Shown here piece by piece: positions 107 through 29,679 of a stretch of 30,967 bases of DNA. The DNA is from Paraphysoderma sedebokerense (Eukaryota > Blastocladiomycota > Physodermatomycetes > Physodermatales > Physodermataceae). Location of the stretch: positions 1 through 30,967 of the forward strand of contig JAHLJZ010000141.1 in assembly GCA_025602915.1 (NCBI GenBank). The letters run 5' to 3'. The notes beneath the pieces were generated by a model. It was given only the letters and a program-made list of their open reading frames with translations. It ran no database searches and was not told the DNA's origin. Position 1 is the first letter of the stretch. Each line of letters starts with the position of its first letter. The position numbers and the translations under genes were made by a program.

Positions 107-2404
107 TCAAGGCCTGACGAAATTGTCATCTTGACCAGTGACGGTTCTGTTCGCCTTCTCTTCTCCAGTCAGAACGAATCCGCATTCTCTCACTGCTAAA
201 TCAGCATATCTACTTAGTATATGTTTTTGTTCATTCAGTTGGGTTCTTTGAGTATTGTATGCATAATGAACAACCAAAGCTTTTCCAACCGCTGCGCAAT
301 GCCTGCGCAACTTTCTTGGAATCTCGACTGCTATTTCTTTCTCGTCATCTGCCATTGTGATTACTGTATCGGATGAGTTCATCACAATGAAATTAATGCT
401 CCATCTTAAAGTTGCATCGTAAGCGTGAAAATCATAAATGTGAAATTCGTAAGCGCTTGACATATTGTGCTCCATATTGTATAGAAAATTTTCATGACTT
501 AGCATGGCACACTTCCAGTTCTTCCATGCGCATGTTCGTAAATCGAAATCGTCACCATTTAAATATGCAGGATCGCGAGATCGCACCCATGGATCTGACT
601 GTTCAAGTGACGGCTGGTATGGAGCAATCGCGCCCAGAGACCCATGAAGAGGAGCTAAAATTGGGTGATTAATGACATTGGCAGAGAGAAATAGGTAGCG
701 GTCTCGTAATTTTTCGGACAGCATCTCTTCAAATGTTCCGTCTCGAATGTAAATTATGTCATCGTCAATTTTAAAATATAAAGTATTGGGAGTCATCCAA
801 CTGTAATGAGATGAAAAGTCCCATCCTTTCTTGGTTATTTCGACTTTTCTGTAGTAAGGTTGATTCCGCTCGATTAAATAATCTAGAAAGTTCAAATCTG
901 GTATCTTATCTGTCTTGACAACAAAAATGACTTCTGACAGGATACCCCCATTTTTGGCAAGGTTTCGCTCAAGATAACAGTTTAATATTCTGACAGATTC
1001 GCGGCGACCATAGAAAATTACGGCGGATACATTATGAGATCGGAGTTCATGATTATTTGGCAGCGGAACATATGGCTTCAGATAGGAATTAGAAGTTTGT
1101 GTTGGACTGACAGATGAGCTGGAAGATGACATGAGAATGATAATCAAGAGAATGGCATGGAAGCCTGCGGCAAGAAAACGAATGGTCAAAGGGGCCGATT
1201 TATCATCAATCGTAATGTTGCTTTGAGTTCCGTTTATAAATGGCAATAGCTTTCTGCTGTACGTTGAGGCGGTGAATTGTTTCGATAACACGAACAACGC
1301 TAAGAGTGATCCCATAATTCCCAGCGGGTACACGATACTTCCAACCGTAATTTTAGTTGCCGTATACACAAACATCGCGATAATTAATGCACCGGAATAA
1401 TTCAGTGATAGATGAAGAGATGACGATTTTGAAACAAGTCGAGTAAATAGTCTAATGGAAACGGCCATCAATAAAGAATTGGAGAGCAACGTCAACATGA
1501 CGGGTGCTGTGAAGGTAACAGATACGGATTCTATGAGTATTGTAGCCCCCAAGAAAGTCATAGTCGAATAATGAAGCTGCATTTATAACACCGACAGGGG
1601 ATTTAAGGCGGCTATTGGTTAAGTATTGACCAAAGGCATACTGGTACGCAATGAAGAGAGACTTACCACTCGTGTCTGCATTACTGAATCCCAAAGATCA
1701 TGGGACTTTAACTTGATGAGCTCATCAATAAATAGAAAGGTGAAGCCCTGGGCCAATGTACTGGTAATTGAGAATGAAATTCCAGATATAGTATATTGAA
1801 TGAAATTTTCTTTTGACATAGTATAAACTATCAATGCGAAAATGACAGTGGGGATTGGCATCAATGTAGAATGCGATATAAGGGGTTGTACTGGACTTAT
1901 TAACGATAGGAATGACGGAAGAAATGACTGAAAAAAGGACATCAGCGGAATGAAAAAAGCAATCGCATCTCAGAAAATTTCAGTTAACAGTACCTTTATT
2001 AGAAGTATGCCAATAGTCGGGAGTTGAGTGAATGCCATATTTTCAGTGAATATCCACACATTCATAGCCGTGATAACCTTGATTAGAAGAATCCATTCTC
2101 CGTTATAATTTTTGACTTCCAATGATGGCTCACTTTCTGTCTCTTCTTCCCTTGCGAAGTCATTTAATGTTGATTGCATGCTGGAAAAGTTTTTATATGT
2201 GCAACACCCCAGGCGGTGTCGCAATGATTGGATATGGTTGCAATGACGGATAATCCTCTCAATACTTGACGGGACAACAGAGAAAAGGAGGATGAAAAAG
2301 CATGTCGTAAATGTCGAGAGAAGTGGGTAGTGAAAGCTGTGTTGAATCAATCTGGCCGATTCGACTAAGACTAACAGCAATGGTTGGGCGGCGGCAAAGG
2401 ACAT
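107..2404 (-). CDS. Nucleotide-sugar-transporter-like / GT-A glycosyltransferase fusion protein
   Basis: Three exons join in phase 0: complement of 1994..2404, 1667..1927 and 107..1576 (introns 66 and 90 bp; donors GTACTG and GTAAGT; acceptors TTTCAG and TGCAG). The product is 713 residues; an in-frame TAA lies upstream of the chosen ATG. Residues 1 to about 325 are a run of hydrophobic helices resembling SLC35A-type nucleotide-sugar transporters: a helix like GISFSITSTLAQGF followed by DELIKL, then a W..(V)MQ segment, matches the known TM5-loop pattern. One extra helix lies at about 355-373, then a Ser-rich linker. From about 407 there is a GT-A domain with RNLAKNGGILSEVIF and FKIDDDIIYI, where DDD (495-497) is the expected metal/nucleotide-binding motif. 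The last membrane helices and the transferase lie in one uninterrupted exon, so the fusion does not depend on splicing. The extra helix would place the transferase in the Golgi lumen. The transporter identity is by eye and weaker than the GT call; donor sugar unknown. Confidence 0.75.
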
Positions 2405-7602: not shown

Positions 7603-8981
7603 ATGTCGATTTCAAGAAAACTACATCCAGCAATTTATGTCGCTATATGGATCTCATTTTCGTCAACAGTCATCATCTATAATAAATGGTAAATATTCCT
7701 TGATATGTCTTTGCTCGGCATTCTGCTTGTTAATTCACTAAGACGCTCTCGTATTCAAATATAAAATAATTCAGGATTCTCTCGTCCACAGGGTTGGTCT
7801 CCTCGGTTTCTTGCTCTATTTTTGTTTAAACTATAAATATGCAATGCAGTAAAACTGGAAAATTCCATGACACGCTAAAAGACCACCCTTTCGCAATTTT
7901 CATTTCTGCCATTTGTCTTAGTTCTTATCGTTCTCACCTTAAATTTTTATGTCTTTTTTTGCTTAAACATGACAGTTTCCACTATCCTATTTCTCTTACG
8001 ACATGGCACCTTATCTTTGCAACCATATTGACACAGATCATGAAACGCCATACGAATATGCTACCGGCCGCCAAAAATTCAACAATGACGTGGGACAAAT
8101 ACACCAGAACTGTCGTCCCCATTGGAATATTCTTTTCAGGCTCCTTAATTTTCAACAATAAAGCTTATTTGCATTTATCAGGTATGACTTTAACATCTTT
8201 AACTTTACAAAGATGATCCCAAATCTCACATAATCACGGCGACAATTGCATGAATCTAAATAGTTGCGTTTATTCAAATGTTGAAAGCCGCTACTCCAAT
8301 TGTTGTCTTGCTTTTTTCCTTCATTGCAGGCTTAAAGGAGCCGAATCTTCGACTTTTCCTCAATGTTTTACTAGTTGTTGTCGGTGTTGCAATAGCTTCA
8401 TATGGCGAACTTGAATTCAGAATGACAGGTGAATTTTTTCTGTTGAAGCGTGAAATTTTTTGGCTCCAAAATAAGACACTAATGCCGTGTACTAAGGTTT
8501 CATATATCAATTAATTGGCCTACTCTTCGAATCAGCTCGTTTAGTTCTTGTCCAAAAACTTATGACTGACAAAATGGACCCTTTGTCCTCACTCTATTAC
8601 TTTGCTCCCGTTTGCGCCTTCTTCAATGCCATCGCTTTTCTCAAATACGAATATCCTGTAATTTCTTTTGCTGATATCACCGATCTTGGTTTCTTCGTCC
8701 TGCTTTCGAATGCGTGCATTGCGTTCGGTTTAAACGTCGCAGTCGTCTTTCTGATTGGGTGCACGAGCAGTTTGGTGTTAACTTTGTCGGGAGTCCTCAA
8801 GGACATTTTGTTAATCTGCTTTTCAATGATCATATTTCATTCGAGATCTAGCACAACGCAGATTTTTGGGTACTCGATTGCTTTAATGGCTTTGGTTAAA
8901 TACAAAACTATGAATATGGATGTGCGAAAAGAGTATCTGCGGCTGGTTGGGAAAGATGTATCCACGGCATTACCCAGGTGA
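7603..8981 (+). CDS. TPT-family (triose-phosphate-translocator-like) nucleotide-sugar transporter
   Basis: Five exons, 7603..7688, 7775..7792, 7976..8181, 8264..8428 and 8497..8981, give 319 residues with consistent phases. The spliced product reads KLHPAIYVAIWISFSSTVII, NKWILSSTGFHYPISLTTW, KAYLHLSVAFIQMLKAATP, SYGELEFRMTGFIYQLIG, LLFESARLVLVQKLMTDKMD, SSLYYFAPV and SSLVLTLSGVLKDILLI. These are the landmark segments of the TPT/SLC35 drug-metabolite superfamily in the right order, and the length is normal for the family. About ten membrane helices are expected in the Golgi or ER. Exon 2 is only 18 bp and its downstream donor is the weak GTTGGT, yet it restores the conserved NKWIL...G junction exactly. 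Intron 4 has an ACTAATG branch site. Substrate cannot be read from sequence; the setting in a transferase cluster suggests a sugar nucleotide. Confidence 0.92.
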
Positions 8982-9509: not shown

Positions 9510-11683
9510 ATGAAATTGCAATGGAAGTCACGTCCAGCATTTGGGGCGATTGCAATTACGACATTTTTGTACTTTTGGACAATCTATTCGAACATATTAA
9601 GAACATCAGACTTATTTACACCACAGGATGAGGTATATTCACATCAAATCATTAATCAAATATATTGCCTGACGAGCTAATAAGTGACAGGAACTATAAC
9701 TAGGCTCTTCCCACAGTCGTCAACGGTAACATTAGGAATCCTCACACCCTATCCCAGAAGATATTGCACTCGCCGAAACCTCAATTATCATTGGATTCAT
9801 CAGACTCGCATATCGAAGTACCAACCGCCGCCTCTCCAGCCCGCACCGGTGCTATCTCTAATTTGATCAACACCATGGACCACTCGAGTACCTTGTCACA
9901 AACAGCAGTGTTTCCATCGACCCCAATTTCGACGAGTTCACCTTTGGTGACACCTGAGCCCAAGTTATGTGATGAGCCCTCGCTGCCTACAAAGATGTTA
10001 TTAGATGTTTCCAAACGTCCGGTTAATGAGGAGACATTGCCGAAATGGATTGGAGATCTCTGTCCTGAGGTAGCAATACATTTTTCCCGGTTTCCGTATT
10101 TTGCGAATTTCACGGATTTGCCTGTAATGACAACATCATATGCCGCACACTCCGTCTGTGCAATGAAGATAGCAAGTGCAATTGCAGCTGCTGTGGAGGC
10201 GAAAATTTATCTCCACGCAGGTTCTCATCTTGGGGCTATTCTTCATGGGGGCCCCATTCCTTGGGACGACGATGTTGATATGTTTCTCCCATACGATAAA
10301 AAGGAGGAGTTTTTGTCTCGTTGTTCCAAATTAACCAATCTGCATCTACAAATTTCATTGGAATGTGTTGTCGGCTTTAACTCTGTCAAATTTTCCATAG
10401 TATCAGCTGACTCAGTAAAGGGGGAGAAGCCATGGAAATCGCCATTCGTAGACGTATTTTTGTTTCAAATACATAACGGCACCATTTACGAAGTAGATCC
10501 AAACGGCGTCAACCTGGAACAATCCTACAGTCTCCACGATTACTTTCCAACACGGCCCTTCTACTTTGGCGGTGTACAGTTGGATGGACCCAGAGAACTC
10601 ATATCTCTTCGACGGTACAATACCTCTATATGTAAGACTGGAGGTTGGAATCACCGATTGGAAAATTGGCCTAGTTATAATGGTAGCCACCTTGTGGACT
10701 GCTGTCACTTGTCAAATCGATTCCCCTTTATTTATAATCACTCGTTTATCTTTGACGGAAGAACTTCTCATCCCTTAACAGATCTGAGGGCATTTGACTA
10801 CTCCTTTGCGCGAGAAACATGGTATATCCCTGATTCATTAAAGAATGATTGGATCAAAATGGATAAAATTGACGGAGACTATCTGCCTCGCCTACTGCCA
10901 AATGCTAGCACTGTAGAGATCGACAATAGCTTATCAAAATGTCAAAACCGAAACAGTATTACCGTCGTTGAATTCAATGCAGGCCATGGCAGAATGTGGC
11001 GACAGTCTGTTGACATTTTTAAGAAGTTCAACGCAGACGTAATCATACTGAATGACATGGATATTGGAATGGCAAGATCAGATCAGCAGCACACAACTCG
11101 CCTGCTAGCTTTCTCTCTTGGAATGAATTATGCGTGGGGATTGGAGTTTTTCGAACTTACTCGAGGCGACAGACACGAGCAGAATTTAACTGCGGGAATG
11201 ACGAATTTCCTGGGCCTGCGCGGAAATGCGATACTTTCAAAATGTGAGATCATGAATCCAGTGATCTTTCGCAATAACATTGAAGTCTATGCGGATGACT
11301 TCGAGAAGCATTTTGGAAGCCGGATGGGACTGCTTTCTCAAATTTCTGTCGGATCTCATGTGCTTACAGTGGGTTCAATTCAAAGGCTAGACGGATTCAA
11401 GAACGAAATTAAAAACTATATTGGTTCTACGAAAGCAGTCATAGCCGGCAATCAGGCTTGGGATTTTTGCGCGGGGGTGGGACTGGCGCATGTCGATGAG
11501 GAATTACATTTTACTTATCCTGCTTCCTGCAAAGGTAATGGTAGTTGGCGGAGTGACATCATTTGCAGTAACGCCAACATTATTAAAGAAGAGAGCACAA
11601 TCAGGCCTTGCATTGAGCAACATGGTAATGAGATCAGATTATCCGATCACTCTTTGACCAGTGTCGTGATCTCTATAGTTTAA
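9510..11683 (+). CDS. LicD-like nucleotidyltransferase fused to an EEP-family phosphodiesterase domain
   Basis: Exon 1, 9510..9632, encodes a type II signal anchor (FGAIAITTFLYFWTIYSNIL); exon 2 begins at 9758 (or 9761) after a 125-bp intron (donor GTATAT, acceptor CCCAG) and runs to 11683. The product is about 682 residues. A Ser/Thr/Pro-rich stem leads to a LicD domain: HAGSHLGAILHGGPIPWDDD followed by VDMF, with the metal-binding WDDDVD at about 210-215. LicD and fukutin/FKRP relatives move phosphocholine, phosphoethanolamine or phosphoribitol onto glycans. From about 443 to the end an endonuclease/exonuclease/phosphatase fold follows: VVEFNAGHGRMWRQSV, ILNDMDIGMARS, GLRGNAILS, VIAGNQAWDFC and SDHSLT. 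The usual metal-binding Glu (NE.D or QE.D) reads Asp in LNDMD, and the GD(L/Q) Asp reads Asn in AGNQ, so catalysis may be altered; the final SDH is kept. Both domains are in one exon, so the fusion is direct. Confidence 0.88.
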
Positions 11684-12771: not shown

Positions 12772-13986
12772 TTAACAATATTTTCCATCCTTTTTCACCT
12801 TCTCCCCTACACTCCTCAGCCCTTCCAAGGTCAAATGATGAATCAAAAATACTGACCCTCTATCTAGTAAGACTTTTTTCCTTTCACACAAATCTTCGGC
12901 ACTTGTAAACAACGCATTTGATCCAGTCCCTGTTATCACATCATCTGAATGTAGCAGTGTGATGCCTAGTCCCGCGACCCAAATTCCCAATGCTGCATCT
13001 TCATTGCTCAGCATATTTAACCATCCGTTTTCATAATTCTCTCCAATCCATCGAGAAACATCGAAGCTCATCAAATACCCGGCCCCAGCCACATAAACAG
13101 GATACCAGTTTGACGAATAGTCACTTTTCCACTTTCCACTTCGAAGCACAGGAGTGTTGACTAACTTGTGTCCTAAAATGATTTTTCGAGGCTCGTATTG
13201 ATACGTCAAATTATATAGCGTCGGAAGCGAAATAAAAACATCCGTATCAGTTTTGAAAAGCCATTTCAAATTTGGAAAGTATGCAGGCTGAACACGCATT
13301 AAGAAATGGTGAATTTGTGCCATCTTGGAGGTCAAGTTTGCATAGGTGTCCTGGTGATTCGGCAGGAATATGATATCTCTGTGGAGCAGTTGCTCCTGCT
13401 TTAGATAGCGCAATCGTTCTGAAGTCATGTTTTGAGTGCCGATGAAGAACAAACGCAAAATAGCATTTGAATTAAAAGTATTGCGGTTCTGGCTTCCAAT
13501 GGGGAGAGTGGTATTATCGTCAATGCTTTCATGCCACTTCTTTGAATCGCTGTTTGGCGACCATGTATCTCGAACGGCATTCCTAAAAGATTCCTCTTTT
13601 TCGCTATCACACGTTAATACAGCCAGTAACAATTCAACTTGCTCCCCTCGCTTACTCTGATCCAACTCATCCAAGATAACCTTATTTCCGAATGCATGAT
13701 ACTGAGATGGGATGGCTCTGTCCAGCACACGTATTTTTGAATGTGTACTCGGATGTCCCAAATTGTTATTTAAGTCGCAGTGACTAGGAGCTTCGGAGTC
13801 TAGATTCCGAAACGTTACTTGTTTATCGGAATTTCCTTCAGGTCGAGCAGCAGAGAATGTTTCAGGGTAAAGGCGATATAGGTAGCCAGCATTTACGAAT
13901 ATTACCGTTATGGTAATTGAAAGTAACAGGAGGATTCTTGTTGGACGAGAGAGAACGGCGAGGTATGGTCTTTGATGTCTCATCAT
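12772..13986 (-). CDS. GT31 (beta-1,3-galactosyltransferase-like) type II membrane protein, tandem copy 1
   Basis: A single exon encodes 404 residues. A short cytosolic tail and a hydrophobic anchor (about 17-36, RILLLLSITITVIFVNAGYL) precede a stem and then the transferase. GT31 landmarks are LLAVLTCDSEKE, FRNAVRDTW (134-142, the R..(I/V)R.TW motif), LHRDIIFLPNHQDTYANLT (the gDi...D.Y.NLT motif), FKTDTDVFI (DTD at 247-249 as the DxD metal site), YVAGAGYLMSFDV and SNEDAALGIWVAGLG (NED at 328-330, the ED.(x)G motif). Length is normal for Golgi GT31 enzymes, which add beta-1,3-linked Gal, GlcNAc or GalNAc. The product is about three-quarters identical by eye to the next gene on the same strand, and upstream sequence is also shared, so the two arose by tandem duplication. 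Confidence 0.92.
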   Translation of the reverse strand: MMRHQRPYLAVLSRPTRILLLLSITITVIFVNAGYLYRLYPETFSAARPEGNSDKQVTFRNLDSEAPSHCDLNNNLGHPSTHSKIRVLDRAIPSQYHAFGNKVILDELDQSKRGEQVELLLAVLTCDSEKEESFRNAVRDTWSPNSDSKKWHESIDDNTTLPIGSQNRNTFNSNAILRLFFIGTQNMTSERLRYLKQEQLLHRDIIFLPNHQDTYANLTSKMAQIHHFLMRVQPAYFPNLKWLFKTDTDVFISLPTLYNLTYQYEPRKIILGHKLVNTPVLRSGKWKSDYSSNWYPVYVAGAGYLMSFDVSRWIGENYENGWLNMLSNEDAALGIWVAGLGITLLHSDDVITGTGSNALFTSAEDLCERKKVLLDRGSVFLIHHLTLEGLRSVGEKVKKDGKYC

Positions 13987-15202: not shown

Positions 15203-16426
15203 TTAACAGAATTTCCCATCCTTTCTCCACTTCTCCCCTACACTTTTTAGGCCTTGCAAAGTCAAATGATGGATCAAAAAAACTGATCTAGGATCTAGTT
15301 TAGCCCCATTTTTTGTGCACAAGTCTTCCGCGCTAGTGAATAATCCAGCCCCTGTTATTACGCCATCCGAATGCAGCATTGTGACGTCTAATCCCGTAAC
15401 CCAAATTCCCAATGCTGCATCTTCATTACTGTGCATTTTTAGCCACCCATTATCATAGTTTACTCCAATCCATCGAGAGATATCGTAGCTCATCAAGTAC
15501 CCGGCTCCGGCGACATACACAGGATACCGGTCGGACTGATAATCACTTTTCCACTTTCCGCTCCGAAGCACTGCGGCGTTATAAAACTTGAGTCCTAGGA
15601 TGATTTTTTGAGGTTCATGTTGATAGGTCAAATTGTATAGTGACGGAAGCGAGAGGAAAACGTCTGTATCAGTCTTAAATAGCCATTTCAAGTTTGGAAA
15701 ATATGTAGGTTGAATGTGCATTAGGAAATGGTGAATTTGTGCCATCTTGGAGGTTAAGTCGGCATAGGTGTCTTGGTGATTCGGCAGAAAGATAATGTCT
15801 CGATGGAGGAGTTGCTCCTGCTTCAGATCCCGCAATCGGTCTGCAGTCATGTTTTGGGTACCGACAAAGAATAAACGCAGAGTAGTGTTCGGATTAAAAG
15901 CATTCTGGCTCTGGGTCGTGGTGGTGATATTGGTATGCTCATCAGCGATTCCTCGGTGTTCCTTCCAATTTTGGTCGGATATCCATGTTTCTCGAACTGC
16001 ATTCCTAAATGCTTCTTCTTTTTCGCTATCATATGTTAATACTGCCAGTACCAATTCCGTCTGTTCCCCTCGTTTACTCTCCTTCAGCGAATCTAAGATA
16101 ATTTTGTTGCCAAACGAATAGTACTTCGGTGGGATTATTGTATCCTGCGCAGCGTGAGGTTCCTGTGAATTTATCTCTGTATTTCTATTTGGTGGTTTCT
16201 CTGAATTGTTGTTCAAGTCGCAGTGACATCGATTTCCGGAGTCAGTATCATGAAAACTCGGTGCCCCATTGGAGTTTGATTGAGGTCGAGCGGCAGAGGA
16301 TGATTCAGGGTAAAGGCGATATAAGTAGCCAGCATTCAGAAATAATAGAGATATGGTAACTGAAACTAACAGGAGAATTTTTGATGGACGAGATAGAATG
16401 GCGAGGGATAGGTTTTGCTGTCTCAT
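15203..16426 (-). CDS. GT31 (beta-1,3-galactosyltransferase-like) type II membrane protein, tandem copy 2
   Basis: A single exon encodes 407 residues: anchor at about 17-37 (KILLLVSVTISLLFLNAGYL), stem, then the same motif series as copy 1: VLAVLTYDSEKEEAF, RNAVRETW, HRDIIFLPNHQDTYADLT, KTDTDVFLSL, YVAGAGYLMSYDISRW and HSNEDAALGIWVTGLDV. All catalytic motifs are kept in both copies, with differences concentrated in the stem and in surface positions, so both appear functional. Copy 1 has SNALFTSAEDLC near the C terminus where copy 2 has GLFTSAEDLC, a small indel. The unit-to-unit distance is about 2.43 kb. Sugar specificity is unknown. Confidence 0.92.
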   Translation of the reverse strand: MRQQNLSLAILSRPSKILLLVSVTISLLFLNAGYLYRLYPESSSAARPQSNSNGAPSFHDTDSGNRCHCDLNNNSEKPPNRNTEINSQEPHAAQDTIIPPKYYSFGNKIILDSLKESKRGEQTELVLAVLTYDSEKEEAFRNAVRETWISDQNWKEHRGIADEHTNITTTTQSQNAFNPNTTLRLFFVGTQNMTADRLRDLKQEQLLHRDIIFLPNHQDTYADLTSKMAQIHHFLMHIQPTYFPNLKWLFKTDTDVFLSLPSLYNLTYQHEPQKIILGLKFYNAAVLRSGKWKSDYQSDRYPVYVAGAGYLMSYDISRWIGVNYDNGWLKMHSNEDAALGIWVTGLDVTMLHSDGVITGAGLFTSAEDLCTKNGAKLDPRSVFLIHHLTLQGLKSVGEKWRKDGKFC

Positions 16427-20244: not shown

Positions 20245-21678
20245 ATGAATCAACAGATTCGATACAAGAATGACATGCTACCAAGCAGTGAACGTAGCAG
20301 TTTTGGCGGGAAATCAATAAGGGAAGAACATTCTCGTGCCGATGCCAAATTCCAAACGAAATCGAAGTCCCAATATGCCATCCTATTCCGCAGTGTTTTG
20401 ATACTCAAGCGCTCATATCGCCTACTGCTGGTTCTGCTCGTGTTCATGATCATCTTTTTTTTCTCTTTTCGTGCTGTAAATCATGAAATCGAACCGCATG
20501 AACGATTTGGCATACTCTCGACAAACAAAGAACAAGGGAAGATTGAAGCATTCTTTCCATCCAAAAGAATTTCACCCCACTTCTTAAAAAAGAATCGAAA
20601 ACTTAGAATATTGTTTTTAACTCACCGTTACGAATACGTTTCTTTTATGGATCGATCATTTTACTTCCAATACGAAGCTGCTATGCGCCATCCATACGTG
20701 GAAGCAACGCTTTGGGGCCCTGGACTACCAGGCTACAATGCTAACAAGACCCTTTCCGAAAATATAATCGCAAAACATGACTTTATTTTCTATGACATCA
20801 TTTTCCTTTTCGGCCAATGTAAGAATACTGAGTTGAAGGCAATCAGTAATCAGGTTCTAGTTACGATTCGAGAATTTGAGTGCTATGATGGTCGATGCGG
20901 TAATTACATCGAATGGAACAACGCTTCCATTTTTCAGTTGGCGTACATGACAGATATGTCTCACTACAAACAACAATCTTCACGAAGGGTAATTAAACAC
21001 TCTCCCCATGGAGCTGATCCAAGGATCTTCTACAAATCGCCTAAAAGTCACCGAAATATAGAAGTTCTTCTGGCTGGTAGCACCTCTACATTATATCCTC
21101 TCAGAAGACGATGGAAAAAGCTTATTGATGAGGGCGGCATTCGGGGAACTATATTTCATCATAGTGGTTACTTCCCGATTTCCTTTAGCGAAATTAAGGT
21201 CGACGAGGATTGGTCTGAGAAAGAAGAAAGGTTCCTTCAGGACCGTCGGATTCAAGTTGAAAAGTATGCCGATGCCATGAAACGAAGCTTAATCTGTGTT
21301 ATGGACAGCTCGATCTACAGATACTCATTAATGAAATATGTGGAAGCGACGATGGCTGGATGTTTAATTATCGCCGATATACCATACGATAATCCAGATA
21401 TGTTCCGCCAGTTTGTGGTTGAAGTACATGAAGATGATTCGGATGAACTCTTGAAGCAAAAAGTGGAGTATTATCTGACACATCCCGAAGAACGGATAGC
21501 CAGAGTGTTGCGTGGCCAAAATTTAGTCCGGAGCTTTACCTGGGATGTGAGTATTGACCGCCTGATAGAAGCGGCAAATGACTTTAAAAAGGGAAATTAT
21601 GGCATTTATGCCAGTGGTCAATATATTAGAGGGTGTGCTTACAAGAATCCGACAGAGAAAAATCAATGGTGTTCTTAA
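20245..21678 (+). CDS. CgeB-like group-1 glycosyltransferase (Glyco_trans_1_2 type), type II membrane protein
   Basis: A single exon encodes 477 residues. A basic, Ser-rich cytosolic tail is followed by an anchor at about 59-77 (RLLLVLLVFMIIFFFSF) and a GT-B-like lumenal domain: RILFLTHRYEYVSF, ATLWGPGLPGYNANKTL, DIIFLFG, then VIKHSPHGADPRIFY, IEVLLAGSTSTLYPLRRRW, YADAMKRSLICVMDSS and RYSLMKYVEATMAGCLIIAD (358-377). The last is the E..A.GC..I.D(I/L)P signature of the spore-protein-CgeB-like glycosyltransferases, common in chytrids. It is the only full-length copy: codons from residue 290 onward are repeated downstream as part of the 3.7-kb duplication. Its 3' end faces the double-GT4 gene across 413 bp. 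Donor and acceptor are unknown. Confidence 0.88.
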   Translation: MNQQIRYKNDMLPSSERSSFGGKSIREEHSRADAKFQTKSKSQYAILFRSVLILKRSYRLLLVLLVFMIIFFFSFRAVNHEIEPHERFGILSTNKEQGKIEAFFPSKRISPHFLKKNRKLRILFLTHRYEYVSFMDRSFYFQYEAAMRHPYVEATLWGPGLPGYNANKTLSENIIAKHDFIFYDIIFLFGQCKNTELKAISNQVLVTIREFECYDGRCGNYIEWNNASIFQLAYMTDMSHYKQQSSRRVIKHSPHGADPRIFYKSPKSHRNIEVLLAGSTSTLYPLRRRWKKLIDEGGIRGTIFHHSGYFPISFSEIKVDEDWSEKEERFLQDRRIQVEKYADAMKRSLICVMDSSIYRYSLMKYVEATMAGCLIIADIPYDNPDMFRQFVVEVHEDDSDELLKQKVEYYLTHPEERIARVLRGQNLVRSFTWDVSIDRLIEAANDFKKGNYGIYASGQYIRGCAYKNPTEKNQWCS

Positions 21679-24600
21679 GTCAGATGTCTTCCTGATGGAT
21701 TGGGTTTAGGAATAGGTGAAAAATCTCTTTAAGTCATATTCACAAAGATCAGATGACAGTAATAAGTCCAGAATAATATATTTAATTGAACGATATACAT
21801 CCATTCGTCATGCTGTTCAAGCTTTTTTTTTGCAACAATTGCATAGGAGTGAAGAACACTCTCCAATTAAGGTGCTATTAATTTTGCTTCTGAATGGTTT
21901 GATTAAATTTATCCTGTAACATTTCAGCACACGCAGATGTTGTTGACCGATTGATTTGCATATCGTAATCTCACTTTCGAGTTAGAATCACACATACTTA
22001 TAAAAATTAATCACTGTACTGCATTCCCGGATATAATGGATTATGGTATATACTATATTATATTTACATATAGTATGATTACATTATTCTATTAATCGCT
22101 CTCCACAACCCTGATAAGGCTGTCTATGTGCCGCTCCAACATCTCTGACTTCAATGACTTCCTTCTCTGAGGATTCTTATGATAAAGTTTATAAGTCGCA
22201 CCTGGTGGAATATATTTCGGAATTTGGTTATCCTTGCGAACATCCTCGATAATAGTTTGGTGATCCAAACATCGGGTGAGGGCGTATTGAAAAGATTTGG
22301 TATCACTGGGTTCGAAGAAGAAAGATTTTCTGCTGTCAAAGAATTCTGTGAAGGCTGGAATGCGGGAGAGGATCAAGGGAACACGGGTACGCAAGTTCAT
22401 GTGCGGCCAAATTGAAAGTTTCAAAGTCTGAAGCAAAGACTGCTGCTCGAACTTTTCTTGACATCTGCACTAGATCTTTACGAGTAAGCGGATGGAGCAC
22501 GAATTGGAAATGGTGGGTGAGATTTCTTGGAATAAGACTTTGCAAGTATTGACTGGTTGATATTCTGCGTTTTAATAAGACTGTATCTGGACCAGCGAAT
22601 ATAAATCTCCCCCCTTTCAGTTTACTTGACTTCAAGAGAAGGTCTATAACACCGGATACAATAGTTTCCAATCCTTTTACCAATTGCATTCGACCGTAGA
22701 CTAAGAAGACAGGATGATCTGAAGAAACTTCTAATGTTATAGGATTTGTTGAATTGAGTAATTCCTCAAACGGGCGCAGAATTTGCATCATTGGTGGATG
22801 TGATAAAACCATATTATCATCATTGAGCCCATAAACTGTAGAGTAAAATCTTTTCATGAAGGTACTTTGACACCACAGGATATCAGCGGACTCCAAAGCG
22901 TATTGTTCTTGAAGATACATTAGCTTTCTTTCTGCGGTATGTTCTGCTATTGCATTTTCCGATTGATCAATGAGTTGTAGAGTTCCATGTAACCGCACAG
23001 TAATCAGAACCTTTGAAGTACATATTGATGACGAAGAAGTTCGTAGCATACGCCAGCATAATCGAAGCATTCGATAATATCAAAAGGATTTTGGCGATAT
23101 ATTAGATCCAATGCCCTAGCAAATATCCTTGATTTTGTCAAGAAAACTGATTTAGACTCTGATAATATTCCTGCCTGCCTCAGAACTGTCCCTGCATCGT
23201 AAACGGATAATCGGCTGTTTTTGTCAGTGACCTTCTGCACATAGTCGATATAATTTTTTGGCATAGCTTCATTCATATCCACTATCACTACCACATCATG
23301 GCCTGCTTCCAGTAATTCGACAACCAAGCCACTGATCACGACACCTGCTCCTCCGCCAAATGTGCTGATAGGATAAAGTTCGTACGTCACGAAGACAACT
23401 GTTGGCTTCACTTCTTTGAATCGCTGAATATCAACAGGTGGGACACTGACATTCAAGAGGACTGAAGGAAGGCTTGGAAGAGCGGTTTGCGGCATGCCTT
23501 GAATGAAAATTTTCCATTCACGTGATGCCTTAAAATATAGCCAAGGCACTAGTTGTCGCACTCGTCTGGAGATAAAATCATAATTTTCGAGAACTTTACT
23601 TACTTTACCCGCAATGAGGTCTGGTGTATCAAGTTCATTGACCACTAAAAACTCTTCTAGTATTTTGTCTTCTGAATAAATTGCGGAGGTAGCACTGGTC
23701 AAAGCTGGTATGCCAGCGCTTATACTTTCTGTAACCATCATCGGGAAACATTCGGTTAAAGAAATGTACATATTGACATTCATTGAGAGAAGAAGTCGAA
23801 TAAAAACATTGTGTTCGAGGAAGGAACCATGTTGTATGATAGGGGAGGTACAATGACGCAGGTACGGTAATTCCGGTTTCTCCAATACATGAATCACAAC
23901 ATTTGATAGGCTACACAATGCTAAGATTTGAGTTGGAACATTCTTATGTACCATGGATGAGCCGAATACGCCAATATGGTATTTCTTTCGTGAGAGCCGT
24001 GCCTTGTGACTGGGAAGAGTAAGGAATTTGTTGGGAAAGTTCCACACCTCGTAAGCTGGCACACCCAGCGACGTAAACGTCTGACCAAAACCAACCTTTA
24101 CCACTGCAATTCGATTGATAATCCTTCTTTTTTAGGCATCAATCATCTGGTCAACTAGTCCTGCCTCCTGAGGATGAAAAACTTGAGATGGCGACCCATG
24201 ATAAATAACCGCCGTTTTCAATCTAGGCATATATGCTTTAAGTTTTCCCAAAAACTGGATGATACTTGGTGGTATGCCGTTGACGATTAGAAGTTCGAGC
24301 GGAAGTTGACGTAGAAAATGCACCAACAGTTTCTCATGTTTCGTTGATACCACTCCTGGCAATTCCAGCACTGGGATTCCCTGACCATAAGTTGCTTCTC
24401 GAATTCCATGCCACTGAGGATGACAAATATTAATTATCTTTGGCCTCAGTTGAATTAAATTATTCGGTGATACTTCGCTGCTCCTTACAGCAAATCCTCC
24501 GAACGAAAACTGACTCATTAGTGCAGAGTTTGAAGGGGCCCATCCCACGGCGGGTAGCAGGTTGGCTGCTGTATCGAAGACCAAGTGCTGAAAATCGAAA

Positions 24601-24836
24601 ATGTCGACATCTACTAGTTCGGGATGCGAATTATTGGCCGGTTCTTCTTGAATAGGTGCTGTGTAGTTCTCTTGCGCAGCAATAGTAATCGTTGGGGCTT
24701 GGGTACAAGAATCGGGACCGCAATTGTCGAATATCAGAAACGTAAGGAGCCAGCACGCCAAAGCGATTACTATAAATGCCCGGCGTTTACGCAAATTAAC
24801 TGGAGAGGCGTATCTGTGGAACGGAAATTTCATTTG
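21112..24836. repeat. Tandem 3,723-bp direct repeat, copy 1
   Basis: Everything from TGGAAAAAGCTTATTG at 21112 recurs 3,723 bp further on. Every landmark compared is at a constant offset, and all conceptual translations in both strands are the same in the two copies, so no indel is present and no substitution was seen. The unit holds the last 188 codons of the CgeB-like gene, the 413-bp spacer and the whole double-GT4 gene up to its start codon. Confidence 0.97.
22092..24833 (-). pseudogene. Double-GT4 glycosyltransferase gene, disrupted, copy A (upstream region replaced)
   Basis: This is a 2.74-kb reading region without introns, equivalent to about 913 residues: signal anchor (FIVIALACWLLTFLIF), a first GT-B module (IGVFGSSMVHKNVPTQILAL, SLTECFPMMVTESISAGIPA), then a second GT4/GT5-like module (TVVFVTYELYPISTFGGGAG, VRLHGTLQLID, FLVYGRMQLVKGLETIV, FASDFETFNLAAHE). 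It is interrupted by an in-frame TAA after VDQMIDA (24132-24134), a frameshift at about 23010-23030 between YELLRHQ and VLITVRLHG, and a second, compensating frameshift at about 22395 between AAHELAY and TRVPLILS. No intron removes them; a 41-nt GTATGC...AAAG excision at the first frameshift is in phase but would delete conserved VCYELLR. Copy A also lost its natural 5' flank, because the duplication junction lies 1-3 bp from its ATG. All changes are shared with copy B. Confidence 0.8.
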
Positions 24837-25401
24837 GAAAAAGCTTATTGATGAGGGCGGCATTCGGGGAACTATATTTCATCATAGTGGTTACTTCCCG
24901 ATTTCCTTTAGCGAAATTAAGGTCGACGAGGATTGGTCTGAGAAAGAAGAAAGGTTCCTTCAGGACCGTCGGATTCAAGTTGAAAAGTATGCCGATGCCA
25001 TGAAACGAAGCTTAATCTGTGTTATGGACAGCTCGATCTACAGATACTCATTAATGAAATATGTGGAAGCGACGATGGCTGGATGTTTAATTATCGCCGA
25101 TATACCATACGATAATCCAGATATGTTCCGCCAGTTTGTGGTTGAAGTACATGAAGATGATTCGGATGAACTCTTGAAGCAAAAAGTGGAGTATTATCTG
25201 ACACATCCCGAAGAACGGATAGCCAGAGTGTTGCGTGGCCAAAATTTAGTCCGGAGCTTTACCTGGGATGTGAGTATTGACCGCCTGATAGAAGCGGCAA
25301 ATGACTTTAAAAAGGGAAATTATGGCATTTATGCCAGTGGTCAATATATTAGAGGGTGTGCTTACAAGAATCCGACAGAGAAAAATCAATGGTGTTCTTA
25401 A
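24724..25401 (+). pseudogene. 5'-truncated copy of the CgeB-like glycosyltransferase gene
   Basis: From about 24835 to 25401 the sequence repeats codons 290-477 of the CgeB-like gene exactly. The 37 codons in front of it (from 24724) are antisense sequence of the double-GT4 anchor exon and happen to leave the frame open, so a 225-codon chimeric frame exists. It lacks the membrane anchor and the N-terminal GT-B half, so it should be non-functional even if transcribed. No promoter of its own is evident. Confidence 0.88.
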
Positions 25402-25814
25402 GTCAGATGTCTTCCTGATGGATTGGGTTTAGGAATAGGTGAAAAATCTCTTTAAGTCATATTCACAAAGATCAGATGACAGTAATAAGTCCAGAATAAT
25501 ATATTTAATTGAACGATATACATCCATTCGTCATGCTGTTCAAGCTTTTTTTTTGCAACAATTGCATAGGAGTGAAGAACACTCTCCAATTAAGGTGCTA
25601 TTAATTTTGCTTCTGAATGGTTTGATTAAATTTATCCTGTAACATTTCAGCACACGCAGATGTTGTTGACCGATTGATTTGCATATCGTAATCTCACTTT
25701 CGAGTTAGAATCACACATACTTATAAAAATTAATCACTGTACTGCATTCCCGGATATAATGGATTATGGTATATACTATATTATATTTACATATAGTATG
25801 ATTACATTATTCTA
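25402..25814. other. Convergent spacer, second copy (first copy at 21679-22091)
   Basis: This AT-rich 413-bp sequence lies between the stops of the CgeB-like and double-GT4 reading frames. A 67-codon frame at its start is conserved in the two copies only because the DNA is the same. No gene is seen. Confidence 0.5.
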
Positions 25815-28556
25815 TTAATCGCTCTCCACAACCCTGATAAGGCTGTCTATGTGCCGCTCCAACATCTCTGACTTCAATGACTTCCTTCTCTGAGGATTCT
25901 TATGATAAAGTTTATAAGTCGCACCTGGTGGAATATATTTCGGAATTTGGTTATCCTTGCGAACATCCTCGATAATAGTTTGGTGATCCAAACATCGGGT
26001 GAGGGCGTATTGAAAAGATTTGGTATCACTGGGTTCGAAGAAGAAAGATTTTCTGCTGTCAAAGAATTCTGTGAAGGCTGGAATGCGGGAGAGGATCAAG
26101 GGAACACGGGTACGCAAGTTCATGTGCGGCCAAATTGAAAGTTTCAAAGTCTGAAGCAAAGACTGCTGCTCGAACTTTTCTTGACATCTGCACTAGATCT
26201 TTACGAGTAAGCGGATGGAGCACGAATTGGAAATGGTGGGTGAGATTTCTTGGAATAAGACTTTGCAAGTATTGACTGGTTGATATTCTGCGTTTTAATA
26301 AGACTGTATCTGGACCAGCGAATATAAATCTCCCCCCTTTCAGTTTACTTGACTTCAAGAGAAGGTCTATAACACCGGATACAATAGTTTCCAATCCTTT
26401 TACCAATTGCATTCGACCGTAGACTAAGAAGACAGGATGATCTGAAGAAACTTCTAATGTTATAGGATTTGTTGAATTGAGTAATTCCTCAAACGGGCGC
26501 AGAATTTGCATCATTGGTGGATGTGATAAAACCATATTATCATCATTGAGCCCATAAACTGTAGAGTAAAATCTTTTCATGAAGGTACTTTGACACCACA
26601 GGATATCAGCGGACTCCAAAGCGTATTGTTCTTGAAGATACATTAGCTTTCTTTCTGCGGTATGTTCTGCTATTGCATTTTCCGATTGATCAATGAGTTG
26701 TAGAGTTCCATGTAACCGCACAGTAATCAGAACCTTTGAAGTACATATTGATGACGAAGAAGTTCGTAGCATACGCCAGCATAATCGAAGCATTCGATAA
26801 TATCAAAAGGATTTTGGCGATATATTAGATCCAATGCCCTAGCAAATATCCTTGATTTTGTCAAGAAAACTGATTTAGACTCTGATAATATTCCTGCCTG
26901 CCTCAGAACTGTCCCTGCATCGTAAACGGATAATCGGCTGTTTTTGTCAGTGACCTTCTGCACATAGTCGATATAATTTTTTGGCATAGCTTCATTCATA
27001 TCCACTATCACTACCACATCATGGCCTGCTTCCAGTAATTCGACAACCAAGCCACTGATCACGACACCTGCTCCTCCGCCAAATGTGCTGATAGGATAAA
27101 GTTCGTACGTCACGAAGACAACTGTTGGCTTCACTTCTTTGAATCGCTGAATATCAACAGGTGGGACACTGACATTCAAGAGGACTGAAGGAAGGCTTGG
27201 AAGAGCGGTTTGCGGCATGCCTTGAATGAAAATTTTCCATTCACGTGATGCCTTAAAATATAGCCAAGGCACTAGTTGTCGCACTCGTCTGGAGATAAAA
27301 TCATAATTTTCGAGAACTTTACTTACTTTACCCGCAATGAGGTCTGGTGTATCAAGTTCATTGACCACTAAAAACTCTTCTAGTATTTTGTCTTCTGAAT
27401 AAATTGCGGAGGTAGCACTGGTCAAAGCTGGTATGCCAGCGCTTATACTTTCTGTAACCATCATCGGGAAACATTCGGTTAAAGAAATGTACATATTGAC
27501 ATTCATTGAGAGAAGAAGTCGAATAAAAACATTGTGTTCGAGGAAGGAACCATGTTGTATGATAGGGGAGGTACAATGACGCAGGTACGGTAATTCCGGT
27601 TTCTCCAATACATGAATCACAACATTTGATAGGCTACACAATGCTAAGATTTGAGTTGGAACATTCTTATGTACCATGGATGAGCCGAATACGCCAATAT
27701 GGTATTTCTTTCGTGAGAGCCGTGCCTTGTGACTGGGAAGAGTAAGGAATTTGTTGGGAAAGTTCCACACCTCGTAAGCTGGCACACCCAGCGACGTAAA
27801 CGTCTGACCAAAACCAACCTTTACCACTGCAATTCGATTGATAATCCTTCTTTTTTAGGCATCAATCATCTGGTCAACTAGTCCTGCCTCCTGAGGATGA
27901 AAAACTTGAGATGGCGACCCATGATAAATAACCGCCGTTTTCAATCTAGGCATATATGCTTTAAGTTTTCCCAAAAACTGGATGATACTTGGTGGTATGC
28001 CGTTGACGATTAGAAGTTCGAGCGGAAGTTGACGTAGAAAATGCACCAACAGTTTCTCATGTTTCGTTGATACCACTCCTGGCAATTCCAGCACTGGGAT
28101 TCCCTGACCATAAGTTGCTTCTCGAATTCCATGCCACTGAGGATGACAAATATTAATTATCTTTGGCCTCAGTTGAATTAAATTATTCGGTGATACTTCG
28201 CTGCTCCTTACAGCAAATCCTCCGAACGAAAACTGACTCATTAGTGCAGAGTTTGAAGGGGCCCATCCCACGGCGGGTAGCAGGTTGGCTGCTGTATCGA
28301 AGACCAAGTGCTGAAAATCGAAAATGTCGACATCTACTAGTTCGGGATGCGAATTATTGGCCGGTTCTTCTTGAATAGGTGCTGTGTAGTTCTCTTGCGC
28401 AGCAATAGTAATCGTTGGGGCTTGGGTACAAGAATCGGGACCGCAATTGTCGAATATCAGAAACGTAAGGAGCCAGCACGCCAAAGCGATTACTATAAAT
28501 GCCCGGCGTTTACGCAAATTAACTGGAGAGGCGTATCTGTGGAACGGAAATTTCAT
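25815..28556 (-). pseudogene. Double-GT4 glycosyltransferase gene, disrupted, copy B (natural upstream region kept)
   Basis: Sequence and lesions are the same as in copy A: the in-frame TAA at 27855-27857 and frameshifts at about 26735-26755 and 26118. This copy keeps unique upstream sequence beyond its ATG at 28556, so it is the original locus and any remaining transcription should start here. Upstream lies a 12-bp inverted repeat (28702-28713 and 28781-28792). The two GT-B modules in one anchored chain recall bifunctional polysaccharide synthases, though this is inference. Because the flanks of each lesion are well conserved, either the gene decayed recently or the underlying sequence has errors copied into both units. 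Confidence 0.8.
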
Positions 28557-29679
28557 TTGTATGGTGATATAAAATTAATACAGACGGAATACGAGTGGAG
28601 GAAGGCAAAATCTTGGATACAGCCGTTGAAGGCCATGTCGTTGTTGTTTCCCGAGATTGGGAGAGCCTATAGATGGCTTCTCTGTTCTCAGTCCGCACAA
28701 ACTGACCGCTGTATCCCATTTAGATCCAGACAATTCCATATATTGTATTTAGACCGGCACAGAGTCTGAGAGTACAGCCGTACAGCGGTCAGCGGTGGTG
28801 CAGCCTTGCTCATGTCCACTCTCATGTCCATAATAGCTTGTCAAAGCGGGAGACAGGTAGATGGGCAGTAGATTCACTATAATGAGCAATCTGTCTGTAT
28901 CAACTTAGTATAACCACTTTTACAATTAAAGTCCTACCGCGACACTTCATGGCCAAAGTTGATGGTTTGGTTATGAAATGAAAAATCAAGTGACGTTACG
29001 CTTATAATTCCAACATAGTGTTGGGCCCATGACAGGGAATATCGCACTCCAGGCCGAATGGCTTCGTGCGTTGTGTGGCAATGTTGGAAAACCGCCGTTT
29101 GGTGTTATCTCGCAAGTCGACAGTCAATCAGCTGAGCTTGAATTATCACATCAATCAACATGTCTCACTAGCTATACTTAATTCAATTTTCAAATGCGGT
29201 GGCCCAACTTCCGCCCAAGGGGGATACATCTTCCACAGTGTATGTGCAACAGTGCAGGTGCAAATTTGCGACGAGGGATTCCCAAAACTATAGCAGTATC
29301 ATTGAAACATTTTTCGGATCATTTTACAGGAATATAGAACAAAGCACATTGATGTCTGGAGTGTGTCCTGCCGTCGAACTTCCACGATACAGTCGACCGG
29401 ATGATAGTGCCACTTCCACATTCACATCGGACCCTGAAAGAGCAATGTTGGGAAGAAGCATTGTATTGCACACGTACACTTTTCGAATGGCAAGGGAAAA
29501 TTTGACTAAAATTAGGTTGAAAATTTGGTTGATTCATAATTCAATTGTGTACGATAGCAGGCGTGCGTGCGAGTCGTCAGCAAAAAGTCCGCGTTTGGGC
29601 CGCGCATCAGCTGTTGTTTACATCTCAAACAATCGACCTCCTCTCTTGTCGCATCCATCTTTATACACATACATTGACC
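28557..29679. other. Upstream region of double-GT4 copy B and intergenic sequence
   Basis: It contains the perfect 12-bp inverted repeat described separately. A 165-codon plus-strand frame (29199-29696) is longer than most chance frames here but shows no hydrophobic anchor, no acidic transferase motif and no family resemblance, so I do not call it a gene. Confidence 0.4.
28702..28792. promoter_or_regulatory. 12-bp perfect inverted repeat upstream of double-GT4 copy B
   Basis: CTGACCGCTGTA (28702-28713) and TACAGCGGTCAG (28781-28792) are exact reverse complements separated by 67 bp, starting 145 bp upstream of the ATG at 28556. It could be paired regulator sites or the ends of a small element. 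The function is not known. Confidence 0.5.

Follow-up and report, generated by a model that had tools for sequence, protein, structure and literature searches.

Does a single fungal gene join a nucleotide-sugar transporter to a lumenal glycosyltransferase, and what would its membrane half do for the enzyme? This question arises from a 30,967-nucleotide stretch of DNA (the window), which is contig C141 of the 27.3-Mb genome of Paraphysoderma sedebokerense (Blastocladiomycota), an organism described in the literature as parasitic, with the alga Haematococcus as its host. The original prediction had spoken of chytrids, a label that in its strict sense does not fit this blastocladiomycete. Three exons on the minus strand (2404-1994, 1927-1667, and 1576-107) splice into 2142 nt, or 713 codons plus a stop. 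Exon 1 (1994..2404, 411 nt) encodes residues 1-137, which run from TM1 into the beginning of TM4 and include a long polar loop at 50-100, and exon 2 (1667..1927, 261 nt) encodes residues 138-224, namely, the remainder of TM4 to TM6 and the next loop. Exon 3 (107..1576) carries residues 225-713 and the stop codon and, as had been claimed, holds the last transporter-like helices (TM7-TM10), a linker, the extra helix TM11, a stem, and the GT-A-like domain in one open exon. Both introns that had been proposed were confirmed with GT..AG borders at 1928..1993 (66 nt, after K137) and 1577..1666 (90 nt, after codon 224), each in phase 0. In protein-database searches with the whole product or the membrane half, no entry corresponding to the window gene was seen.

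The search with the whole product, in which 7997 candidates were scored, returned two matches: P0002, a 719-residue paralogue 62% identical over 97% (NCBI BKA69DRAFT_1081742, a single entry annotated as a hypothetical protein), and P0003, a 395-residue protein related to the transferase half. Contig C40 of this genome (locus L003) carries a gene that encodes P0002 exactly. That gene shares with the window gene the lengths of exons 1 and 2 and the phase of both introns, which follow codons 137 and 224 in either copy, and the intron sequences of the two paralogues show no clear likeness. Genome searches using the transferase half (E up to 0.001), an unfused transferase relative (E up to 10), or the membrane half (E up to 10) as the query each found only the two fused loci, a count to be read as a lower bound.

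Comparison of the two genes by Nei-Gojobori counts gave pN/pS values, with 95% bootstrap intervals, of 0.44 (0.37-0.52) for codons 1-325, 0.37 (0.25-0.51) for junction codons 326-404, and 0.16 (0.11-0.21) for codons 405-690, figures that are rough because synonymous differences approach saturation (pS 0.66-0.79). Across the junction, third codon positions were the least conserved (34 of 75, versus 45 and 52 at the other positions), as in coding sequence. Both halves and the junction thus look translated and selected, and in-frame purifying selection at the junction argues for a conserved fusion and against a gene-model error. The halves do evolve at different rates, with the membrane half being the faster (51% identity over residues 1-325, 80% over 405-690), which could be invoked in favor of two separate adjacent genes wrongly joined in the model, as could Met373, present in the window copy after TM11. 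This explanation is very improbable given the single open exon, the conserved intron sites, and the identical fusion in a paralogue that NCBI lists as one protein. Moreover, in-frame Met codons are absent from P0002 between residue 301, where TM10 starts, and residue 481, within the transferase domain, and exon 3 of this copy consequently lacks a start codon for a single-anchor transferase. We reject a two-gene artifact in view of the conserved introns, the junction selection, and this missing start codon; the fused gene is real and is kept as a fusion in two paralogues, in agreement with the original prediction.

The C-terminal half has a confident GT-A-like predicted fold over residues 405-690 (179..1036), although the fold match is unspecific, nucleotidyltransferases tying with glycosyltransferases. 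The DDD motif (758..766, residues 495-497, corresponding to D491-D493 in P0002) is intact in the window copy and at least 90% invariant in a 30-row alignment, consistent with a metal-binding DxD motif at the expected metal/donor site. These observations bear out the GT-A domain with DDD that had been read from the DNA. Three sequons and five cysteines of the domain lie at corresponding positions in both copies. The fused pair matched no Pfam family above its cut-off, including PF01762 (Galactosyl_T), a family matched at E up to 1 by 6 of 30 family rows, with P0005 alone exceeding the cut-off.

Among 31 other family members of at least 240 residues, 18 have a predicted N-terminal helix ahead of the transferase domain, and TM11 (1124..1198, residues about 351-375, hydropathy 2.3) corresponds to it in place. 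TM11, a likely signal anchor, is therefore best read as the original anchor of the enzyme. The product as a whole has eleven predicted helices and not the single N-terminal signal anchor of type-II Golgi transferases. An unrooted tree groups the fused pair and the fragment P0004 with P0021, P0025, and P0032 (support 98/93), and P0025 is unfused and carries its own N-terminal helix, suggesting that the fusion is the derived state. Five distant relatives of the transferase half (L042-L046) were also found in viral contigs, with best segments of 24-26% identity; the one inspected, L043, is unfused and adjoins frames that resemble sugar-nucleotide enzymes by eye. Altogether, the reading of the C-terminal half as a probable sugar-transferring enzyme on the lumenal side is well supported by prediction.

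Placement of the enzyme in the lumen depends on the helices that precede it. Hydropathy predicts ten helices ahead of TM11, the last four of which (TM7-TM10, residues 225-325, 1274..1576) complete the polytopic domain according to hydropathy and charge pattern. Lys and Arg residues in loops following even-numbered helices total 15 in the window copy and 20 in P0002, versus only 2 and 1, respectively, in loops following odd-numbered helices. This positive-inside pattern predicts that the N- and C-termini of the ten-helix domain are both cytosolic, which therefore places the transferase domain in the lumen. The charge distribution thus supports the predicted ten-plus-one arrangement with a lumenal transferase that had originally been put forward, and the ten helices with cytosolic termini agree, by prediction, with the topology of drug/metabolite transporters (DMT). 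Charged residues within helices that are kept in both copies include E15, R18, K109, E121, K137, and E240. Conservation of intramembrane charge as a sign of transport was dropped, since 9 of 11 charged and 68 of 114 hydrophobic residues inside helices are kept, a difference that is not significant (p = 0.13).

Whether these ten helices form an SLC35-type transporter, as originally claimed, was addressed by family searches. Residues 1-325 of either paralogue matched no Pfam family at E up to 10, in a search whose HMMER filters drop most weak matches, and no PDB sequence in a PDB sequence search. Neither paralogue reached the curated cut-off of PF04142 (SLC35A), for which three true members encoded in this genome reach 292-355 bits, or that of PF03151 (TPT). 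When 5.8 billion proteins were searched by a word-limited method, the membrane half matched only the fused paralogue, with no match within the allowed lengths of 0.55-1.75 times the half (7998 candidates scored), and it had no locus in the viral contigs. Nor did profile tests connect residues 1-325 with the TPT or SLC35A families in any usable way. A segment test linked the membrane half to neither family; in the control, the test linked four of five SLC35A-type proteins to the TPT profile, shuffled sequences doing as well in no more than 6 of 200 cases (14 of 200 for the fifth protein). Structure prediction, suggested as a check at the outset, yielded the GT-A-like fold for the transferase but no usable fold for the membrane half, AlphaFold returning a pLDDT of 37.9 and a pTM of 0.23 for residues 1-336 of P0002 alone. 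The outcome named at the outset as a refutation, a predicted fold unrelated to that of drug-metabolite transporters, was thus not obtained either. Foldseek/VIA on the full model covered in effect residues 384-692, so the absence of a DMT match there says nothing about residues 1-325. A tie of residues 1-325 to SLC35/DMT by sequence or fold is not supported by sound evidence; judged from its sequence, the membrane half is an orphan domain of ten predicted helices, matched to no family.

This absence of any family match among Pfam, PDB sequences, and proteins would also be compatible with a domain unrelated to SLC35, whether a transporter, a flippase, or a lipid-binding module, that would offer the lumenal enzyme its acceptor, either a lipid or another molecule. 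Ten helices with a charge pattern placing both ends in the cytosol also occur outside SLC35. We regard such a domain as unlikely, as nothing positive points to any such family, and a shared intron site and motif point instead to TPT genes. Specifically, the phase-0 intron at K137|S138 occupies the same site as the sole intron of a hand-spliced, unfused TPT gene model on contig C1, an exact coincidence that would arise by chance with a probability of a few per cent, by our estimate from a rough count of about 16 DMT introns in the genome. Furthermore, the spacing N.A[FY]..L...K[SA]..P (the K-S..P motif) is shared by eye with TPT-type proteins. Together with topology, these hints of SLC35 ancestry for residues 1-325 are weak. 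In BLAST searches of a small set, the top matches of the window copy, at 29.2 bits apiece, were an SLC35A-type protein and a colinear TPT (best reversed decoy, 25.5 bits), while P0002 reached 27.8 bits against reversed decoys and 22.4 bits against the best real DMT protein. Another candidate, the SLC35A motif comparison YFEKVLK...SLW versus FIDELIK...DLW, looked good by eye and was rejected, with 19 of 300 shuffles as good for the pair and 400 of 500 in the segment test.

The same data allow for a domain that was once a transporter, or is transporter-like, but now anchors, retains, or organizes the transferase in a particular membrane or complex. The higher rate at which the membrane half evolves and the lack of an SLC35 signature recognizable by Pfam or the segment test are in line with such a loss of transport. 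In addition, a lysine of helix 9 that we take to bind substrate in TPT proteins has no apparent counterpart in our hand alignment of the membrane half. On the other hand, a pN/pS of 0.44 sustained over 325 codons suggests more than an anchor, as do the kept intramembrane charges (not significant as a set), and a single helix is the likely anchor in the 18 relatives that carry one. We view a non-transporting role as unlikely.

In the window, the gene adjoining the fused one codes for a DUF707 protein (3257 onward, + strand) and is followed by LicD, galactosyltransferase-like, and group-1/4-like glycosyltransferase genes and an unfused TPT gene. The latter (7604-8981, +) is an intron-rich transporter gene within the glycosyltransferase cluster, matching PF03151 at E 8.3e-24 as a hand-spliced model, and has a close copy on contig C11. 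The LicD-family protein (9704-11683, +; E 1.4e-10) has a long C-terminal part that resembles an endonuclease/exonuclease/phosphatase domain by eye, with no such Pfam match. Two similar Galactosyl_T-type frames lie about 1.2 kb apart on the minus strand (12772-13986 and 15203-16426), and PF01762 was found in the former, the only one of the pair tested. An exact tandem duplication spans 21112-28559 (period 3723 bp, 3725 consecutive identical positions), reflecting either a very recent event or an assembly artifact. Within it, three consecutive minus-strand frames (22336-24863) are repeated, perhaps as exons of one gene; the two tested matched group-1/4 glycosyltransferase and starch-synthase-like families. 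Beside the C40 paralogue, minus-strand frames at L003:1926-3583 resemble a type-II transferase by eye and include an MDTDS motif; neither of the two frames tested matched Pfam.

We propose that the gene encodes one 713-residue endomembrane protein of eleven helices, in which a ten-helix domain with cytosolic ends would precede a type-II-like transferase made of a signal anchor, a stem, and a GT-A catalytic domain facing the Golgi or ER lumen. This architecture of a ten-helix domain plus a lumenal transferase is very likely correct. The fusion would have arisen when a polytopic membrane protein was joined ahead of a type-II transferase gene, probably before the gene duplication, and both copies are retained by selection. 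The transferase would glycosylate an acceptor in the lumen. The ten-helix domain, very divergent and SLC35-like in topology, would serve the same step, most likely by delivering the nucleotide sugar, or carrying the nucleotide back, right where the enzyme works. Taken jointly, architecture, origin, and donor-serving function form an explanation that we favor with a confidence somewhat short of even. Donor transport by the ten-helix domain is in itself a tentative proposal. Equally tentative is the bolder version in which a highly diverged but genuine nucleotide-sugar transporter, kept in two paralogues, is covalently joined to the very lumenal transferase that consumes its cargo, channeling the donor across the Golgi membrane within one polypeptide. 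As a link of residues 1-325 to SLC35 lacks sound support in sequence or fold, the "built-in supply of donor" of the original prediction is treated here as a hypothesis. If true, a natural transporter-transferase fusion would provide a direct test of whether local donor delivery matters, as well as a one-gene tool. Even if no transporter is involved, an orphan ten-helix domain that an early-diverging fungus has fused to what is probably a lumenal transferase offers a defined setting in which to study its function.

The literature covered, which included PMC9368800, PMC6939170, PMC8092308, and PMC6453868 and few subscription journals, yielded no naturally occurring protein in which a nucleotide-sugar transporter is fused to a glycosyltransferase. 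The fused pair resembles SLC35 transporters (PF04142, PF03151, PF08449; DMT) in its about ten helices, with both ends cytosolic by charge, and in one intron site that also occurs in one of the genome's TPT genes, but differs from them in lacking a Pfam match or significant similarity in the segment test. With GT31-like enzymes (Galactosyl_T, PF01762) and type-II Golgi GT-A transferases, it shares the GT-A-like fold, the DDD motif, the likely anchor, and the stem, but has ten extra helices in front. SLC35A2, SLC35A3, and SLC35A4 associate with MGAT glucosaminyltransferases in Golgi membranes, an association proposed in PMC6453868 to make synthesis efficient; those partners are separate polypeptides, identified there by FRET and BiFC interaction screens, whereas the window protein is one polypeptide. 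We regard the latter as a variant lumenal GT-A transferase carrying an orphan ten-helix domain.
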